From: Sclerodactyla briareus
Taxonomy: Eukaryota > Echinodermata > Holothuroidea > Dendrochirotida > Sclerodactylidae
Assembly: GCA_026419785.1 (NCBI GenBank)
Contig: JAODTK010003699.1
Location: 124,001-188,000 of the forward strand
Direction: 5' to 3'
DNA: 64,000 bases
Position numbers and translations under genes: made by a program. A model generated the notes under the pieces. It was not told the origin of the DNA and made no database searches. It saw only the letters and a program-made list of their open reading frames with translations. Below, piece by piece: positions 18,881 through 64,000 of the stretch; within the stretch, counting starts at the first letter, position 1; the number at the start of each line of letters is the position of its first letter.

Positions 18881-19395
18881 TCAGTATAAGTACTATATCG
18901 CTTTATGGGGTCACGATGAAGTCATCAAAGGTCACTAGAGGTCAACTTCACAACTTGAAACAAAAACAAGTTAATAACGTTTAGTCCAGTAAGGATGAAT
19001 CTGCAATAGTGCTTTGTTGATTTTTTTGTTGACCTGTACCCGTATTTGTTGGATACTGTGCAACTTTTAGGATATGTTATATACAGGGAGCCAATTGCTG
19101 TCCATAGTGTCACTTTTCATTTTTCGAAATATGGATTTGTTTTATATATTGGTTGCTCATATTGCGCAAGTACTCCTACCCTTTTTGTTCTTGTGTCTGG
19201 TTACGGGTTATAAGAAATGAATCAAAGCATTACATCAGTCATTCTTGTTCATATAAAAGAAAAATAGAGCAATATCAGATTGCGAGATTCACAACATGTG
19301 CGATTTCCGTTAGATTTATACGCTGTGGTTTCAAGTTTAATCGGCTAATTGTTGTTTTAACATTAGGTATTTCAATCTATTCACCCTCTATCCAG
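18881..19395. other. Sequence upstream of the first lectin exon
   Basis: No exon with a signal peptide could be identified here. The polypyrimidine tract and CAG acceptor of the lectin exon occupy the last 25 bases. The leader exon of the lectin gene must lie further upstream, or has been lost. Confidence 0.4.
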
Positions 19396-19560
19396 TGCCA
19401 GCTGTTTCTGGGTGTCCACAAGGATGGGAATTTCGGCGGAATTTCTGTTACTTTTTGGAAGAAACAGCTATGAACTTCCAGGATGCAGAGGACGCATGTA
19501 AAGCGAAAGGAGCTCATTTGGCCAGTGTTCACTGCAAAGCAGAAGATAACTTCCTGCACG
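19396..19560 (+). CDS. C-type lectin domain, exon 1 of 3 found
   Basis: The exon lies between a pyrimidine-rich acceptor ending TCTATCCAG and the donor GTGCGT. It is 165 bp with both introns in phase 1. It encodes CPQGWEFRRNFCYF, then AEDACKAKGAHLASV and ending DNFLH. This is the N-terminal half of a long-form CTLD: the CPxGW...CY disulfide pair, the first helix with the C1 cysteine (EDAC), and the GAHLAS strand-helix motif. The usual Trp before the helix is replaced (NFQDAEDAC). CTLDs of this class are usually secreted or membrane recognition proteins, often acting in invertebrate immunity. No leader exon was found, so the protein type is unknown. Confidence 0.85.
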
Positions 19561-19573
19561 GTGCGTAATTAAA

Positions 19574-21192: not shown

Positions 21193-22104
21193 TACTACAC
21201 GACACTACTACTACTACTACTACTACTGCTACTACCACTGCTGCTACTGCTATTACTCCTGTTGCTACTGCTGCTGCTACCGCTATTAATGCTGCTACTG
21301 CAGCTGTTGATGTTGCTACTACCGATGCTGCTACTGCTGCTGCTATTGCTGTTACTGTTACACTGTTACTGCTACTTCTGTTGCTGCTATACTGCTGCTA
21401 CTGTCACTACTGCTGTTACTAGTGCTGCTGTTGATGCTGCAACTGCTGTTAATACTGCTGCTGATACTGTTGCTACTGGTGCTGCTGCTACTGTTACTGC
21501 TGCTACTACTGCTGCTGTTGCTACTGCTATTAATGCTGCTACTGCAGCTGTTGCTGCGACTGTTACGGCTGCTGCTATCGTTACTGTTGCTACTACTGAT
21601 ATTACTGCTGCTGCTGCTACTACTGCTGCTGCTATTGCTGCTGCTATTGCGGCTACCGCTATTAATGTTGCTACTGCAGCTGTTGCTGCTAATAGTGGTG
21701 ATGCTACTATTGCTGTTGCTGGTACTGATGTTAATATTGCTACTGCAGTTGTTGTTGCTATTGCTAATGCTGATGTTATTGTTGCCTCTACCAATGTTGC
21801 TGCTACTGCTGCTGCTGCTGTTGCTGCTGCAACTGCTGATATTAATGCTGCTGTTACTACTGCTACTGATGATGTTTCTATGCTGCTGATACTGTTGCTG
21901 TTGCAGCTACTGCTGTTTTGCAATTGCTGCTACTGTTACTTTCTACTGCAACTACTACTATTGCAACAGATGCAGCTGTTGCTGCTACTGCTGTTGCTGC
22001 TGCTACTACTACTGCTGTTACTGGTATTACTCCTGTTGCTACTGCTGCTTCTACTGCTGCTGTTACTGCTACTACTGTTGCTGCAGCTGTTGCTGCTACT
22101 GCTA
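21193..22104 (+). repeat. Trinucleotide (CTG/CTA-type) array, left part
   Basis: About 900 bp is built of TGC, TAC, TGT and TAT triplets in an imperfect repeat. It keeps long frames open on both strands (poly-Leu, Ala/Thr/Val or Ser-rich), which I regard as spurious. The array resumes at 25,901 after the 3.8-kb insertion. Confidence 0.9.
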
Positions 22105-22134
22105 CCCTTACAAAAAAGTTCTATAGAATTCTAT

Positions 22135-23865
22135 TTAAAAAAATCTATAGAAAATCTATACAATTTTCTATAGAGCCCCTCTATAGAAACTCTATAGAAT
22201 TCTAAAGAATTTCTAAAGAATTTCTAAAGAATTTCTAAAGAATTTCTAAGAATTTCTAAAGAATTTCTAAAGAAAATCTATAGGATATTCTATAGAACTC
22301 TATAGAATTCTAAAGAATTTCTAAAGAAAATCTATAGGATATTCTATAGAAACTCTATAGAATTCTAAAGAAAATTTATAAGATATTCTATAGAAACTCT
22401 ATAGAAACTCTATAGAAACTCTATAGAAATTCTAAAGAAAATTTATAAGATATTCTATAGAAACTCTATAAATTCTATAGGATCTGTGAAGAATCTCTAA
22501 AGAAAATCTATAGGATATTCTATAGAAACTCTATAGAATTCTAAAGAATTTCTAAAGAATTTCTAAAGAATTTCTAAAGAAAATCTATAGGATATTCTAT
22601 AGAAACTCTATAGAAACTCTATAGAAACTCTATAGAAACTCTATAGAAACTCTATAGAAATTCTAAAGAAAATTTATAAGATATTCTATAGAAACTCTAT
22701 AGAAACTCTATAGAAACTCTATAGAAACTCTATAGAAATTCTAAAGAAAATTTATAAGATATTCTATAGAAACTCTATAGAAACTCTATAGAAATTCTAA
22801 AGAAAATCTATAGGATATTCTATAGAAACTCTATAGAAATTCTAAAGAAAATCTATAGGATATTCTATAGAAACTCTATAGAATTCTAAAGAATTTCTAA
22901 AGAATTTCTAAAGAATTTCTAAAGAATTTCTAAAGAATTTCTAAAGAATTTCTAAAGAATTTCTAAAGAAAATCTATAGGATATTCTATAGAAACTCTAT
23001 AGAAACTCTATAGAATTCTAAAGAATTTCTAAAGAATTTCTAAAGAATTTCTAAAGAATTTCTAAAGAATTTCTAAAGAAAATCTATAGGATATTCTATA
23101 GAAACTCTATAGAAACTCTATAGAAACTCTATAGAAACTCTATAGAAACTCTATAGAAACTCTATAGAAACTCTATAGAAATTCTAAAGAAAATTTATAA
23201 GATATTCTATAGAAACTCTATAGAAACTCTATAGAAACTCTATAGAAACTCTATAGAAATTCTAAAGAAAATTTATAAGATATTCTATAGAAACTCTATA
23301 GAAATTCTAAAGAAAATCTATAGGATATTCTATAGAAACTCTATAGAAACTCTATAGAAATTCTAAAGAAAATTTATAAGATATTCTATAGAAACTCTAT
23401 AGAATTCTAAAGAATTTCTAAAGAATTTCTAAAGAAAATCTATAGGATATTCTATAGAAACTCTATAGAAACTCTATAGAAACTCTATAGAATTCTAAAG
23501 AATTTCTAAAGAATTTCTAAAGAATTTCTAAAGAATTTCTAAAGAATTTCTAAAGAATTTCTAAAGAATTTCTAAAGAATTTCTAAAGAAAATCTATAGG
23601 ATATTCTATAGAAACTCTATAGAAATTCTAAAGAAAATTTATAAGATATTCTATAGAAACTCTATAGAAACTCTATAGAAACTCTATAGAAATTCTAAAG
23701 AAAATTTATAAGATATTCTATAGAAACTCTATAGAAACTCTATAGAAACTCTATAGAAATTCTAAAGAAAATTTATAAGATATTCTATAGAAACTCTATA
23801 GAAACTCTATAGAAACTCTATAGAATTCTAAAGAATTTCTAAAGAATTTCTAAAGAAAATCATAT
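22135..23865. repeat. CTATAG-rich minisatellite (11/12/23-bp units)
   Basis: The array is made of a few unit types joined in blocks: AAACTCTATAG (11 bp), AATTTCTAAAG (11 bp) and AAAATCTATAGGATATTC-type units (about 23 bp, with a TTTATAAGATATTC variant). Runs of two to nine identical 11-bp units alternate with the 23-bp unit, giving a higher-order pattern. Units are near-palindromic. The array starts directly at the left TIR of the surrounding element. Confidence 0.9.
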
Positions 23866-24034
23866 TCTAATTCTGGTATGAACACAAGCCTATACTACCT
23901 TGATCGGTTATGGCAAATAGTTGAATAGATGATTACCCCCCCCCCCCCCCCCACCCCTCTCCCCCCCGGGATGGTCTCGCGCTGCAGGCTAACTTTGATA
24001 TAAAATATATTTTTAAATTATTGCGCATCCGGAA

Positions 24035-24066
<32 letters not shown>

Positions 24067-25564
24067 CTATGCAGTGCCAATTCACCTGACTCAGGCTAAT
24101 GAATAGGCATAATAAATTCTTAGCTTTCGAAACTTTGGCCTTATTAGCCGTTATCCAATAATTTTCAAGAATAACACAAGGAACCTACCGGTCAGATTAT
24201 TGTGATCCTCATTTTTCCTGCCAAAGGGTTTAATGCATATTAATACGCATTGTTCAACATGTTAATACCAGTAATAGGCCTAACCACACACAAATTGCAC
24301 CGGACTTGGCCTAGCTATATAACACAAACAGCTGTGTGTACTAACTTGCCAATGTGCTACACTGAATATTTGTTAAGCTATAGCCTACACATTCACTCTG
24401 CAAACTTTAGGCTTGAATATGAATAAATAAAATAATACCAAATAGAAATAAATCATAATTTCCGATTGACAAGCTTGAAACTATAAATTCCTGGTCAATT
24501 ATACTAATACCTATCCAATGTTCCTTGAATCATAAAACCAATTTAGCACTGAATGGCTGACATTCAGAACTACAGAGCCTTACTGCCACTCTGGCATTTG
24601 AATTAGGACTGTCAAAAATCACACTGTTCTTGGTCAGTTTTGTGATTTGTTTAAATCTGACTGAATATTATTTAAATTACGGGAGACAGTTAATAAATTC
24701 AAATGATGTAAAGTGAAGGTTAATTAGCTATCCATTTCCTATAGATCCCAAGCATTCATTCATTCATGGTATTTGATCTAATAGAAGCGCTACATTTATA
24801 ACTACTAAAGCACACCAGAATTCTATAGAAACTCTATAGAATCTCTATAGAAATTAATAAAAGCTTTTTTTATCAGTAAAATCAGTTCATTTCCATTCTT
24901 ATTCAGTATATAGGCCCATATAAATGTCAGTCATCCAGAAAGCTAACAGAACAGCCAGAAGACCTACACATCTTTAGGCCTGTCCACATATCTAAATCTC
25001 TCTTTTATTGATATTTAAGAACAGAAGGTCTAATTTCTTAAATGGGCTGAATGGATGGGGGGGGGGGGGGGTTGGGGTCGCATATAGGCTATACAGAAAT
25101 CAAACAAGTACCAGTTGGCAGGTGCGGCGTGCTAAAAAGTGGAAAAGTTGAGGTGACGCATTAGCAGGAGACGTACGCGTCGCCTCCCCTGCCGTCCACA
25201 CATTATGAGGGTGTTAAAGATGTGGGGATATAACTTCTCATTCCTTTATCTGCCCAACTCTCCCTCCCACCATTTGAATGCATGGTCAAAGTCAAAGTTG
25301 GCGCACCCAAGCAGTGCAGCATCTTCTCCTCCCCTCTTTAAGTTGAAGTTTTGAGAGGACGAGGGAGACACATGGGCCCAAATAAGGTACGTTGTTGATA
25401 ACAAGTGATTGTACCCAGCTAATATTCTAAGATATCAATAACAATACAGTCTTGTAACGGTTTACAGTGAGCGGCAACGATTTCGGAAACTAGCCAGACG
25501 ATACCAGGACGCCTTTAAACTAGCAGCCCACGCAACTTTCAGCCTTTTTCACTGCAACTGCAAC

Positions 25565-25614
<50 letters not shown>

Positions 25615-25670
25615 TTATTATTATATTATTATTATTATCATCATCATTATCATTACCGATGGCATTGGAT
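23866..25670. other. Unique interior of the TIR element
   Basis: AT-rich sequence with poly-C (about 23,936-23,952), poly-A (about 24,041-24,066) and poly-G (25,058-25,071) runs, and an (ATT)n tract at 25,565-25,645. I see no coding frame or transposase motif. Confidence 0.5.
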
Positions 25671-25900
25671 TTTCAGATTCTATAGAGGTCTATAGAATTC
25701 TGAAAAAATGAATCTACAGAACTCTATAGAGTGACTAATGCTTACAACGTTTAATAGAAAATGTTTTTTATAGAAATCTATAGAAACTATGAATTCTATA
25801 GAAAATATGGGCTCAATTTATAGAAAGTGATATTCTATGAAGAACTATATAGAACTCTATAGACACTTCTATAGAATTCTATAGAACTTTTTTGTAAGGG

Positions 25901-26240
25901 ACAGCTGCTGCTACAACTGTTGCTACTACTGCGGCTATTGCAGCTGCTACCGCGGCTACTGCCATTAATGCTGCTACTGCAGCTGTTGCTACTACTGGTG
26001 ATGCTACTTCTGCTGCCACTGTTGCTGCTACTGCTATTAATATTGATACTGCAGTTGTCATTGCTAGTGAAGATGTTTCTACGCTGTTGCTACTGCTGCT
26101 GCTACTATTGCTACTGATAGTGTGTTTACGCTGCGCCTACTGTTGCTGCTACTGCTATTAATAGTGATACTGCAGTAATGGTGCTACTGTTATTGCTGCT
26201 GCTACTGTTGCCTCTACCACTGCGACTGCTACTACTACAC
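25901..26240 (+). repeat. Trinucleotide (CTG/CTA-type) array, right part
   Basis: This is the continuation of the array at 21,193-22,104. It has the same triplet mix and starts directly after the right TIR. Confidence 0.85.
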
Positions 26241-26329: not shown

Positions 26330-26421
26330 GCCTGCTGGGTACCCCGCCTGTGCCGGACACTTACATCGGACTGAATGACAGAGACACGGAAAATGACTTC
26401 GTATTCACCGATGGCACCGAG
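26330..26421 (+). CDS. C-type lectin domain, exon 2 of 3 found
   Basis: The acceptor is TTCTGCCATCCAG. The first two bases complete a Gly codon with the last base of exon 1. The exon encodes LLGTPPVPDTYIGLND, then RDTENDFVFTDGTE, the central CTLD segment. YIGLND corresponds to the WIGLND hallmark, with Tyr for Trp, and FTDGTE to FxWSDGS. The first GT downstream is GTAGTT directly after the GAG codon, giving a 92-bp exon ending in phase 0. Exon 3 needs a phase-1 partner, so one base is missing at this junction. Either a base was lost in the genome or the read, or splicing uses another donor. Confidence 0.8.
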
Positions 26422-29372: not shown

Positions 29373-30720
29373 GTGAGTTCATTCTACGATCACTATACAC
29401 GAGCCTCGGGGCTCAGTTACGGTACTGGGTTAAGTGTTGTAATTTACATCATTTGTGTCATTGCGACGTATTGCGACGTATTTTTAACAGTGACGAACCT
29501 GCGGTTAATTTGTTCAATAGCTGAACAATGAACCTCTATTAACACAAACTTTAACTGAACTCAATTAAAGGAAAGCCCACAACAAATTTATCCGACTATC
29601 CTAAATGTATTGACTTTGTACCGGAACCAAAAAGTGAAGGTCATCCGAGGTAAAACTGAGTCAAGGCCCCACAGATTTGGATCAACTAGAGGATCAAGCC
29701 GCTCTTACTAGGCACGTGGATACCCGAACTGCCGAATAGGCGAAATAGCGAATCGCCAGGCGAATCCCTAGATAGGCGAATCGCGGAATCGCATGTCGCG
29801 TAGGTATGTATTGGACAAAATCGCGAGAGAAGACCGATGAGCGACAATTTAGCGCGAAAACGAAAACGAAACATGAGCTAGTAAAAGAACATCAAGTAAT
29901 AAGATGTATATGACAGGGGTATACCTTTTTTATGAAGAAGAAACAGAGCGACGCAGAGTCGACGGGCAGTCCACCCAATTAACGACAGCGGCTATAGGTC
30001 TATAGACCTATATAGCTATAAGCCGTATCGAGTATGTCCCTCAGGGAATTTTCAGAAAACCGTGGCTGACATACTCTAAACACAAAAGAGTGAATGTCCT
30101 CTCCCATGAAGTGTGCGGAGTGACCACTCTGCCGTCGAGTGGTCATCATTCCATTTCAGAGCGACATTTCTCTCCATTGTAGAGATTATTCGCCCATTAT
30201 AGAGTGAGGCTTCACTCTATTAGAGTGGAATTCTCACTCTAAATTCGAAGTGTGCTTTCTTGTACCACTCCAAATAGGTGAACACTCACTCTTTTGTTTT
30301 AAGAGAGCATGCGTGAGTGATATATGGGTTATGCTAGACATGACATGACATTTGCCGGAAGCTGTGGATGTATCCCATGCCTGGGTGGGTCAAGAAAGGG
30401 CGAAAAATATACTATATATATTATATTTATATATTATATATAATATATAAAAAATGGGCGAAAACAAATATTTCCCGGGTAGGTCGATTACCCGAATAGG
30501 TCTATCCAACCCGAGAGCGGAAGATTCCCGAGATCTTGGAGAAAATGAGTCCCACCAAAACCGGGTTATAAAAAGACAATCAGTGTCCCATTCGGCGTTC
30601 CATGGTGTGTTCATGAATCGCGGGCTGTCGCTGGCGCATGTGATTCGAATATATCAATAGAATCAATACGAAGTGTATCACTACTGTGTATCATAAACCT
30701 ACCTATACAGGGTTGCTCAC
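29373..30720. other. Downstream of lectin exon 3, no recognised exon
   Basis: Around 29,725-29,800 there is a patch of GCGAATCG-like repeats. Around 30,080-30,310 the motif CACTCT/AGAGTG recurs in both orientations. A TATA-rich stretch lies at 30,405-30,450. None shows coding features that would complete the lectin gene. Confidence 0.4.
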
Positions 30721-50960: not shown

Positions 50961-51107
50961 CCAGTGTGGATCGAGTCCACACTCCGATTCCGAGTCCAAG
51001 ACCGAGTCTCCCCATCCGAGGCCGAGTCCAAGACCGATCCTCAACTTCCGAGTCCGAGTCGTCCCGAGTTCTTGTGTCCCGATTCCCGAGTCCGAGTCGC
51101 ACGAGTC
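50961..51107. mobile_element. GACTCG-rich MITE block (copy C)
   Basis: Starts CAGTGTGGATCGAGTCC and continues with degenerate CCGAGTCC/CCGAGTCG hexamers to GCACGAGTCCC. The start resembles the CAGTG-type ends of copies A and B at 56-57 kb. The right end is incomplete. Confidence 0.5.
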
Positions 51108-51414: not shown

Positions 51415-54400
51415 AGTTTAGTTTAGTTTAGTTATTGAATAAGGGTCAGGAAGGACAAAATCCGCATAAACGACCCGCATCCACACACCCCAGGAAAGAA
51501 GAATGAACCAAAACTCGACTAACTAATACGCCCTTATCCGAAAAATAAATCAAGACTGTTCTTGAAAGCATTCACACTCTCAGACAAACAAATTTTCACG
51601 GAAGACAATTCCACTCATTGATCACTCTCCTGCGAGAAAAAGATTTACGAATGTCCATTCTACAGCGCTTGCCACGAAACTTGAGACAGTGGCCTCTATT
51701 TTGCCGTCACATTGGAAATTCAAAGAAGAGTGGAAGGCCAGGCCATCGAGTCCATGGACATTTTGAAAACCTGAATAAGTCACCCCGAATCGCCCAGCTC
51801 CATGGTAGTTAGACCGAGACGGCCTTACTCTTTCCATTCGTAAGATAAATTTTTCAGACAGGTGACTCATTCTAGATTTCCTCCCCGCTGAAACGTTCTC
51901 AATTACCTGCTTGTCTTATTGGCAAGTCGGGGATTCCCACACTTGTACAGATTACTCTAGTGCGGTCTCAACCAGTTGCTCAAACAGCCTACAACAATAT
52001 CAATTACTCAAGGAAACTGAAGTTACGTCTATAAGCCAGAAATCCAATAACCTCTTCAACAGCTTCGGCACACTGCTTGAAGTTTCAAAGCAGAATCAAA
52101 ACAACCCCAGATCTTTTTCCTGAAATCACCTCCTGAATTTTCCGGCCATTCCCAACTTGTGAAGGAAGCGTTGCCATTGTGAAAACAATCATGCATAACT
52201 TTGCACTTGTCGACATGAAAACATTTGCCAGTCGAAGACCATTTGGAAATTATATCCAGATCCTTTGAACATTGCAGCATCATCACATTCGAACGCCTCC
52301 CTATACAACTTAGTATGTCCTGGCGAATTGCTTAACCCCTTGGATCAACAGAACCTTCAAGACCGTCAATATAAAGCCAGAAACAGAGCGGCCCAAGGAA
52401 CCGCTCCCTGTGGAACACCACTAGACCTTTTGGCCCAAGAAGACGACCGCCCCATTAATGACAACTCGTGTTCCCTACTGTATGAAGCCACTCACGAATC
52501 CACGGAGGACGATTCCCCTCATACCAAAGCTCTCCACCTTGAGCAAGAGACGCCCATGAGAAACTTTGTCAAATCTTTCTGAAAGTCCAGGAAATTATAT
52601 CAACAGAATTGCCGTTGTCCACAGAACATGTACCATCTTCCACAGTTCTTCCACAATTCCAAGAGCTATAGGTCAAACACGAACGATCTTATTCCTTCCT
52701 AAAACCCATGCTGAGAAACTCTAATCAGACTATGCTCAATTTAAATAATCAAAGTATAGGATCCCGAATGTATTGATTCCTATACCTTGCAGACAACCTA
52801 GTAAGACTGACTGGCCTGTGATTACAAGAAAGACCGATTACCTTTTTTGAAATAGGACAAACATTTGCTCTCCTCCAATCTCCGTAACACTACCTCTTGT
52901 AGAGTCTTATTGAAATAATAGCTATGGAACAGACAACTCTCGGCAAAGGTTTAGTAAGAAACAGATAAACTCGCGCAGACCAGAGCTTTATCCCTTTTGA
53001 GGCTCTGTGCAATTTTCTCCTTTTCTAAACAGACGAACACACCATATTACCAATATCGGCGGATAAACCCCGACATCTAGGTCACCAAAATTATCCAAGT
53101 TCTCAAGAGTAAAACCGACGAAAGTATTATTAAGAACCCTAGCCCTCTCCTGGCTATCGCGATTGTACACCCGAGTTTGGGGAATCTATCAAAGTACAAT
53201 GCGTTCCTTGACTTTCTGCTTCCCCCTCACAACAGAGAAAAATGCACGAGTATTCTCCTTGATATAGAGGCAATCTGCCTCTCGAAATCGAGTTAAGCAC
53301 CAGAAACTAAACGCTGGCCAAGTTTTTGCTGACTTTGAAATGCTCTAGATCAGACACTGACCCAGAAGAACGATAAGTCGCCATCGTGGTCGCTTACGTT
53401 TGATGACCAGAAAAACTTTTCCTTTTCATCAAGAAGGCTCTTGGGTCTTACTCTGGACGTTTCCTCCAGGAACGTGAACTTTTCATAACCTCGTTAACTT
53501 GTCAATGAAACCTTCCAAGAGTCAACAACAGCATTCGGACTTTCTAACAATTTTATGATGGCCAACCTACTTTGCTAAAAAACTGGAAATTCCATCCCAC
53601 ATCGCCTTCGCGAAACAAGGAACACGCTCTACACTCTGTTGGGATATTGACAGAACAAGACCCATTGAAAGCTAATATATCGTGATCACTTGCACCGGTC
53701 TTCCCCAAGCTCTCTACATTATCTACGAGTCTGGGATCACTGCTCAAAACTAAATCCAAATTATTATGCTTTCTGGTATGTACATGCTGAGAAAGGAAAC
53801 AATCCTGCTTGACATTGAAAAACGCCAGATCCATAACTGCCACTAGTACCATTTGACCAAGAAATATCTCGCTATTGAAATCACCCATAATAAATTGTAC
53901 TCTTCCAGAAACTGCGAAAGCATGTCGGAAAGAAAAGAGTTTGTGTGTCTTCAGAGCTAATTGGAGAACGGTACACACGCCAACTAATAAAGCACTGGGA
54001 ATACCAGATGGAAGTTAGACGGAATTTCACAACCATACCCGAGTTGACACAACTTACACCAAACAACCAATCTCGGCTTCTCAAAACTATTCAGTCAGAC
54101 CTCACCTACATACACAAAACTCCACCACCAATGCCAGGAAGAGTAATCTATCCTTTCTTGCCTATAAACCACCAAACTGTTTCAACAACCACGACTCTTA
54201 ATACCATACTCAGGCTTGCGTCCTGGACTAAACTCGCACTCACAAACTTGGTTTCCTGATACTTTGAACATAGCAAAGAAAAGAGAAAGCTGGCTAACAT
54301 ATCTCATCGGCTACTGTTGACCTCGCCAGAGCTCCCACTCTGCGATGCTTACTATTTACAACTCTGCCAGTAAGCCTCGGACACCTGAAACCTCGCCCCC

Positions 54401-62428: not shown

Positions 62429-64000
62429 CTCCATACGACATTAGTAGCATGGGGTGGAAACCTCGCCACACTTATGTTTTCACCAACTTAATAGAACAGA
62501 TGCTCATCAAAAGGGGAGTCATGAAATGCATGGCTCCATTTCATTGGCACTTTCCTCCAACCCAGCAATGACAGGTAGCTTTTGTTGAAGACATAGTGGA
62601 TATGTCCTGCCGAAAGTAACGTACACTGCTGTCATATATTTAATCACCCATATAACTCGCCATTGAGCAACCCGCAATGAAGGCCTTAAATTCTGGTTCC
62701 GAAAACTGTGGGTCAGTGCGGGAACCTTTGTGTTAACTGAATTCTACCAAGGGGACCAAAGATGATGTAACCTCACAGGGGATTGGTGCTGAGAGGGAAG
62801 CTGTGTAATGGGTTTTTTACCTCTGACACCGGCACAATCCAACATATCACTGGTGTAATTAGAATAACAGTGCTGGGACAGTAGGCACTATATCCAGGAT
62901 TTATGTTACCGGAATCAGTTGAGAATGTTTAGCCTATCTTTTAGCGTGCATGGCAGGGGCATGGAGGGAAGGGCCAAGGGTTATTTGTTTTCGAGAGTGC
63001 GATTGCAGTGTATTACCCATGTGCATCCAGAGTTTTCGGAACAGAAGTAAGACCCACTAAGACCCCGCCAGGTACAAAGGTAAGCACCCCCTAAGACCCA
63101 ACCAGGTACCAAAGTAAGACCCCTAAGACCCAACCAGGTACAGAAGATACTTTTGCGGAAGAGTGTGTGACATGTGTTTAGAACTGGAAAATATTACATT
63201 TGTTGCTACTTGTATATTCACTAGTTAGCCTAGAAGCCTCGTAGTGCTCAAGGGCCAGTGTTTTTACACAGAGTTAGTCAAACATGTGAGTCCAATGTGT
63301 TTCATGTAAAGTCTAGAGTGACAGAGGGTCTTCCTGTCAAAATGTTAAAATTGGGTTGCTCAATATGAGCCAGTAGCCAGCCAGCATAGCCAGCCTTCGA
63401 GTCAGAGGGAAAAGAACAATTTGTTCCAGGTTTTGTATTTTTCAGCTTACCTCTGTTTACGCGGGAAAGTGAGGAGGGAGGGGGGGGGGGGGTGGTGGGG
63501 GTTCTGACCTGATAGGCAGTCAGAAAAATCTGTTCTTCTCGTACCTCACCATTCCCCCTACCCTCAATTCCATTTGGGGCCCCGGCTACATTTTTTGCAC
63601 GATTATTCGATATATTCCCAACTTTTCAGAGTATGTCTTTTTTTTTTTTTTCATATTTCTTCTCGTTTTTGCACCTCCCCTCCTTCGTTTCCCGTTTTTC
63701 ACCTGTCGATTTCAAGATTTGCCCTCTCGACTCAGTAGGGTTGCAGGGGCTACTGGGCTACACAACTGGCCATATATGGGAAAATGATTATTAAGGTTTA
63801 CCAAGCAACCATGTATGACTTCAAGAGTTGTATATAAGTGACCCATGCTCATTTTCTTACTTGTCTTTCCTGATAACTTCTGACCCACATAGGCAGATGA
63901 GAGGCAAACACAGTGCTAAGCCAACGAGGGGCAATGTTAACCTTTTCTTTATAGTCCCACTTGAGTAGGTAACTGGGAAGGTGTCCAGGCCTGACTATGT
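62429..64000. other. No recognisable gene
   Basis: A short tandem repeat lies at 63,047-63,145. A poly-G tract is at 63,480-63,491 and a poly-T tract at 63,639-63,651. No exons are recognised to the window end. Confidence 0.4.
63047..63145 (+). repeat. Three-copy tandem repeat (~37-39 bp)
   Basis: The unit is close to AAGACCC-CTAAGACCCAACCAGGTAC, repeated three times with small differences. Confidence 0.75.

Follow-up and report, generated by a model that had tools for sequence, protein, structure and literature searches.

A locus of Sclerodactyla briareus, at which a minisatellite abuts the terminus of a transposon-like element that is itself embedded in a triplet repeat, raises the question whether the minisatellite grew on the spot out of the terminal sequence, as had originally been predicted from the DNA letters, or whether it came with the element. 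The element is 3.8 kb in length, occupies positions 22105-25900 of the window (the whole 64,000-nucleotide stretch that was analysed) and is delimited by perfect 30-bp terminal inverted repeats (TIRs), whose identity and spacing agree with the prediction. The left TIR (22105-22134, plus strand) consists of a CCCTTACAAAAAAG tip plus palindromic unit sequence, and in an inverted-repeat comparison it matches the right TIR (25871-25900, minus strand) at 30 of 30 positions. The perfect inverted repeat cannot be extended beyond 30 bp, and there is one occurrence per arm within the window. The long, repeat-bearing TIRs of foldback elements (Tetris, Galileo) are absent, since the perfect inverted repeat ends at 30 bp.

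A left subterminal segment (22135-22200, plus strand), defined by searching the genome with the query 22105-22400, most of whose scored matches start at bases 1-4, leads from the TIR to the array. The array is an expanded minisatellite of ~11-bp units with higher-order repeats (22140-23858, plus strand; Tandem Repeats Finder and unit parsing). Tandem Repeats Finder reports it with a period of 11 and 155 copies or, alternatively, as 22191-23858 with a period of 67. Thus the predicted period of about 11 bp is confirmed, but the array does not merely adjoin the TIR: it sits inside the element and begins directly after the left TIR. Its units are the perfect palindrome TTCTATAGAA and TTCTAAAGAA variants. 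In the window, CTATAGAANNCTATAG with at most one mismatch is matched 27 times on both strands, palindromic sites being counted twice, compared with 0.03 expected from shuffles, in which the largest value was 1. The same units recur sparsely inside the element and near the right TIR, as had been noted before, in small clusters at 24822-24853, 25769-25809 and 25841-25889 (Tandem Repeats Finder). The first of these lies on the plus strand within the family-common interior (23859-25660, plus strand), and most other copies have mid-interior unit matches, too. The right subterminal units extend over 25680-25889 (plus strand; unit matches, Tandem Repeats Finder and CTATAG counts), and the last 260 bp contain eight CTATAG motifs in the window copy and 4-10 in the 27 other copies introduced below. 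The interior, which was characterized by genome search, stop-free pieces and Pfam, has no recognised coding capacity. In four copies, for each of which the six longest stop-free pieces were considered, these pieces are short or mostly of low complexity, and five interior pieces from three copies have no Pfam family match up to an E value of 0.1. Accordingly, stop-free pieces and Pfam searches revealed no transposase inside the non-autonomous copies examined.

Searching the source genome (319 Mb, 3171 contigs) with the 30-bp terminus, as had been proposed in the original prediction, yielded 30 matches with up to three mismatches, two of which are the window's own, and none for the reversed-pattern control. 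The outer 22 bp of the TIR have 46 matches in the genome, compared with 12 in the control, and 36 of the 46 begin with CCC, a tally that is biased because the pattern itself starts with CCC. Moreover, the interior (query 24080-25560) matches 40 scored candidates including the window (40 of 98 candidates were scored), and the full-length interiors among them are 75-87% identical to that of the window. With 22105-22400 as the query, 33 of 40 scored candidates, the window among them (from a total of 90), have their first aligned query base at 1-4 and the remaining seven at 7-18, and the outer boundary is therefore fixed. For closer comparison we used a sample of 38 stretches, the window plus 37 others. 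Both ends were recognised in 28 of them, and thus there are 27 other copies with the same TIR pair, whose absence would have refuted the original prediction by its own criterion. The stretches left out of this set (L014, L016, L019, L023, L028, L029, L032, L033, L037 and L043) are those in which the second end was unrecognised or unassigned, or in which the contig ended. The copies are 1.7 to 3.8 kb long, and in 22 of them the flanks, judged by eye, differ from each other. An additional family copy, on contig C1833 (L049, L058), has a reduced array and its right end near 2.4 kb. These results bear on the alternative that the locus is a satellite block without fixed boundaries, whose TIR-like ends are incidental. 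The occurrence of units at both ends and inside the element would suit such a block, but the narrow range of starting bases, the conserved interiors and the target-site duplications (TSDs) described below contradict it; the fixed ends already refute this alternative, and we give it next to no credence. With fixed boundaries, many copies and no recognised coding capacity, the element is a non-autonomous TIR transposon, as predicted.

The copies allowed us to compare array lengths and positions, a comparison that had also been proposed. If the units are defined more loosely, the left array extends over 249-545 bp in 26 of the 27 other copies, compared with 1754 bp in the window copy. The remaining copy, L036, formally has an extent of 10, because the first gap in it is larger than the limit, but its units are found at 72-385. 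In all 27 other copies the interior is collinear and has the array at the same end. These copies had been oriented by array position, and an independent check with the window interior showed that all of them are collinear. The units of the left array have one orientation (TCTAAAGA 277 vs TCTTTAGA 2, summed over the 28 copies). A left array plus a right unit cluster, and therefore subterminal repeats at both ends, are present in all 28 copies compared; the long array is restricted to one end, and the other end has just a few units. The original prediction had the array grow from the terminal sequence by slippage or unequal exchange. That it would have been newly generated in this way at this locus is highly improbable, even though the TIR contains the same kind of unit sequence and the array here is about four times as long as that of the other copies. 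The types of unit that were amplified in the window measure 11-12 bp and are also found in arrays of other copies; this length is unlike that of the TIR-like 10-bp unit CTATAGAATT, which accounts for only nine parsed units in the window array. Together with the arrays at the same end of the other copies, this contradicts seeding at this locus. Thus, since the position of the array relative to the interior is the same in 27 other copies, the array came with the element and has grown within it, so that local growth stands and local seeding from the TIR does not. The inherited array of the window copy is about four times longer than the arrays of the other copies. The array may have arisen from the TIR in an ancestor of the family.

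The window is not the only place where such an array has grown. The array of a copy on contig C66 (L028, C66:29800-37700), the left tip of which is degraded, is also expanded, and it contains 110 units of CTAAAGAATTT and 43 units of CTATAGAAACT in two blocks. The array in the window mixes short runs with higher-order blocks, and its longest exact internal repeat is 188 bp. Since their patterns differ, the two expansions look independent of each other.

The element is inserted into an imperfect triplet array (GCT/ACT/GTT; Tandem Repeats Finder and phase), which covers 21205-22103 (plus strand) and continues to the right of the element at 25901-26236 (plus strand). The triplets touch both element ends, as expected from the split array that had been described. 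Beside the left end GCT is in phase 0 (10 of 10 in 22040-22104 and 21 of 23 in 21900-22104) and beside the right end in phase 2 (17 of 17 in 25901-26060), and removing 3797 bases from the window restores the triplet phase, an outcome with a one-in-three chance. As evidence for insertion this is modest, because the phase of the triplets also shifts on its own farther to the left: over 21700-22104 there are 19 triplets in phase 1, 24 in phase 0 and 2 in phase 2. A readable empty site is provided by another copy (L041, C2201:85882-88492), which is inserted into a short tandem repeat with a period, judged by eye, of about 16 bp; once the element and TC are taken out, the repeat motif is continuous again.

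We then tested TSD lengths of 1 to 9 bp in 27 copies, using stretch boundaries set by fuzzy matching of the TIR tip (L031 was excluded, its right flank being too short). Exact 2-bp flank matches are found in 10 of 27 copies, compared with 2.0 in shuffled pairs. If a one-base slip in the terminal C-run is allowed the numbers are 21 of 27 and 7.0, and neither observed value was reached in 4000 shuffles. The duplicated dinucleotides vary in sequence, and in 6 of 27 copies a 2-bp match is absent even with slip. The family makes a 2-bp target duplication, which an earlier comparison of 22 copies had not separated from one of 3 bp. In the window copy the probable 2-bp TSD is AC, with its left copy at 22104-22105 (flank test and family-level 2-bp TSD) and its right copy at 25901-25902 (flank test and phase), neither assigned to a strand. 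The C of the left AC overlaps the CCC tip, and a 1-bp duplication fits the window copy alone equally well. In one copy (L036, C2809:48066-51100) the flanks share the 7-bp sequence TACCTTT, which a 2-bp duplication does not explain (exact 7-bp matches: 1 of 27 vs 0.04, P 0.04).

The TSD analysis also bears on what kind of transposon this is. A non-autonomous element of the Rehavkus type, a Mutator-related group with a minisatellite beside one TIR and with a MULE-like transposase that carries a PHD finger, would account for the general layout, since in the description available in PMC6446971 the minisatellite precedes the 3' TIR and the TIRs measure 26-400 bp, a range that includes the TIR length seen here. 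However, the TSD of Rehavkus is 9 bp long, and a perfect 9-bp flank match occurs in 0 of 27 copies with or without slip; the mean 9-bp flank identity is not above random either. The copies being old, decayed 9-bp repeats are conceivable, but with a 2-bp duplication in the family a Rehavkus-type element is very unlikely. It is also unlikely, if to a lesser degree, that the element belongs to a different superfamily of DNA transposons that duplicate 2 or 3 bp, such as a PIF/Harbinger-like one, and that the transposase on contig C1358 discussed below is a coincidental neighbour. In favour of this, 3-bp matches with slip are seen in 8 of 27 copies vs 2.1 (P 0.0005), although they overlap the stronger 2-bp signal, and the Pfam matches on C1358 are weak. 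Exact 3-bp matches, in contrast, are limited to 2 of 27 copies vs 0.7 at random (P 0.16), and the CCC tip of the TIR fits the animal TRC elements described in PMC1636069.

The reading that we prefer, with a probability of about 0.72, is that the window element is a cut-and-paste DNA transposon, non-autonomous and of the animal CACTA-related (TRC-like) kind, in which an inherited array has been lengthened. Animal TRC elements, as they are described in PMC1636069, have TIRs that begin with CCC and are 10-54 bp long (27 bp in the Tribolium element), as well as a tandem-repeat region, and 7 of 14 copies of SmTRC1 show 2-bp direct repeats. The family described here shares with them the CCC-starting TIR, which at 30 bp falls within this range, the 2-bp duplication in some of the copies, repeats inside or close to the ends, and truncated derivatives. 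It differs from the elements of that account in the TIR sequence past the tip and in having an array of near-palindromic 11-bp units at one end; moreover, the examined copies are without a recognised transposase, and the association with a Transposase_21 gene is tentative. Plant CACTA (En/Spm) elements, according to the description in PMC8978399, likewise carry several hundred bases of subterminal repeats beside short TIRs, but the tip of their TIRs has a CACTA core, whereas the tip is CCCTTAC here, and their TSD is 3 bp long.

A candidate for the transposase partner is found on contig C1358 (L059, L060; C1358:24500-37199). There, the right end of the family is recognisable over ~135-200 bp with 70-76% identity and is joined to a different interior, in which pieces of open reading frames precede the family right end. 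These pieces match Transposase_21 (PF02992) with an E value of 0.016 and, collinear with it, DUF4218 (PF13960) with an E value of 0.013, both below the curated cut-offs. DUF4218 is associated with CACTA elements. A piece of 286 amino acids has one full match in the genome and two weak ones at 41-45%, a piece of 130 amino acids has one full match and a weak one at 31%, and the 1.5 kb that follow the pieces match only themselves. Since no second close copy of the pieces exists in the genome, which has about three such loci in its 319 Mb, chance adjacency of the family end and the transposase is unlikely, by a rough estimate below 1%. It is plausible, if unproven, that the pieces are a near-single-copy relic of a CACTA-like transposase and a partner of the family. 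A convincing left terminus was not found in the 13.5 kb read, so that the family right end and the pieces need not belong to a single element; two loose matches to the terminus with four edits each are located at 29899 and 31580, with no unit array beside either. A direct search of the genome with PF02992 gave 0 matches, and the control searches did not give any either.

L046, L049, L055, L057, L058 and C1358 were drawn from 12 further termini, which are a selection of the unassigned ones and were examined once the CACTA-related hypothesis had been formed. Family-like termini are present on C37 (L046, C37:13773-14600), where the match to the family covers 117 bp only, and on C3032 (L057, C3032:136989-137810), where it covers 48 bp only; a different interior follows in both. 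These two may possibly be further partners or other derivatives. The terminus on C2065 (L055) has no match to the family.

The preferred CACTA-related reading can be put as a sequence of events. The element would have inserted into a pre-existing triplet array and duplicated a 2-bp target. It would already have carried, in its subterminal region, near-palindromic units of ~11 bp: an ancestral array of about 250-550 bp on the left and a few units on the right. By analogy with what is thought for CACTA elements, the units may be sites in the subterminal region to which a protein associated with the transposase binds, and the transposase could have come in trans from elements that resemble the C1358 relic. 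The inherited arrays in the window copy and on C66 would have been lengthened separately, before or after insertion, by slippage of short units, as the runs of one 11-bp unit suggest, and probably also by duplication of longer blocks, to which the exact internal repeats of up to 188 bp point. A more far-reaching version of this is that the one-sided array is an expandable docking platform whose near-palindromic units bind the transposase machinery and whose length tunes mobility, so that the family would spread hypervariable minisatellite seeds through the genome, two of which (window and C66) have since expanded independently. We regard this version as rather doubtful.

The original prediction took the perfect TIRs as a sign of recent insertion. 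The TIR pair of the window copy is indeed the best preserved among the 28 copies (30 of 30 positions; the next best has 28 of 30), but the nearest full-length interior among the 40 scored of 98 candidates is only 87% identical to that of the window. The window copy may thus belong to the younger members of an old family, and its insertion is recent in a relative sense only.

Repeats inside transposons that grow into satellites have been published before. In the foldback element Tetris of Drosophila virilis, end-proximal tandem repeats of a non-autonomous element grow to kb-size arrays, as here, but according to the description in PMC4079207 its TIRs are long and contain ~220-bp repeats, whereas the TIR here is 30 bp and the array one-sided. 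In Chenopodium, tandem arrays also arise within or beside CACTA elements, but the satellite described in PMC7320549 was traced to the transposase gene and not to subterminal repeats. A minisatellite beside a TIR is likewise on record for Rehavkus (PMC6446971). The literature, searched by description and not by sequence, yielded no report of the present family. We rank it as a new representative of a type of element already known, not as a new type. Its value lies in minisatellite growth inside a transposon that has many unexpanded sister copies: a single genome offers for comparison the starting state, the types of unit and two expansions of different pattern. Moreover, it is likely an animal CACTA-related family whose subterminal repeats reach array scale. 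We also considered the mirage minisatellites of amphioxus, which are defined in PMC3087553 by a tandem duplication spanning an exon-intron boundary, and rejected them, as the repeats here are inside a bounded element with dispersed copies.

Several features of the surrounding window were recorded as well. A stretch at 19341-19565 resembles C-type lectins (Pfam Lectin_C, E value 0.00032, 21.8 bits vs a cut-off of 22.6) and matches 158 distinct sequences of solved structures up to an E value of 0.1, the best at 1.3e-16. A short stretch at 26332-26421 is lectin-like by eye and has no Pfam family match. The triplet array and the element lie between these two stretches, and since lectin-like sequence flanks them on either side, we infer that the insertion is intronic. 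A piece at 53553-53975 on the minus strand gives Pfam matches, weak and below the cut-off, to the endonuclease family found in non-LTR retrotransposons. Finally, Tandem Repeats Finder detects two short minisatellites with 32-34-bp units, at 63041-63146 and 50983-51060.
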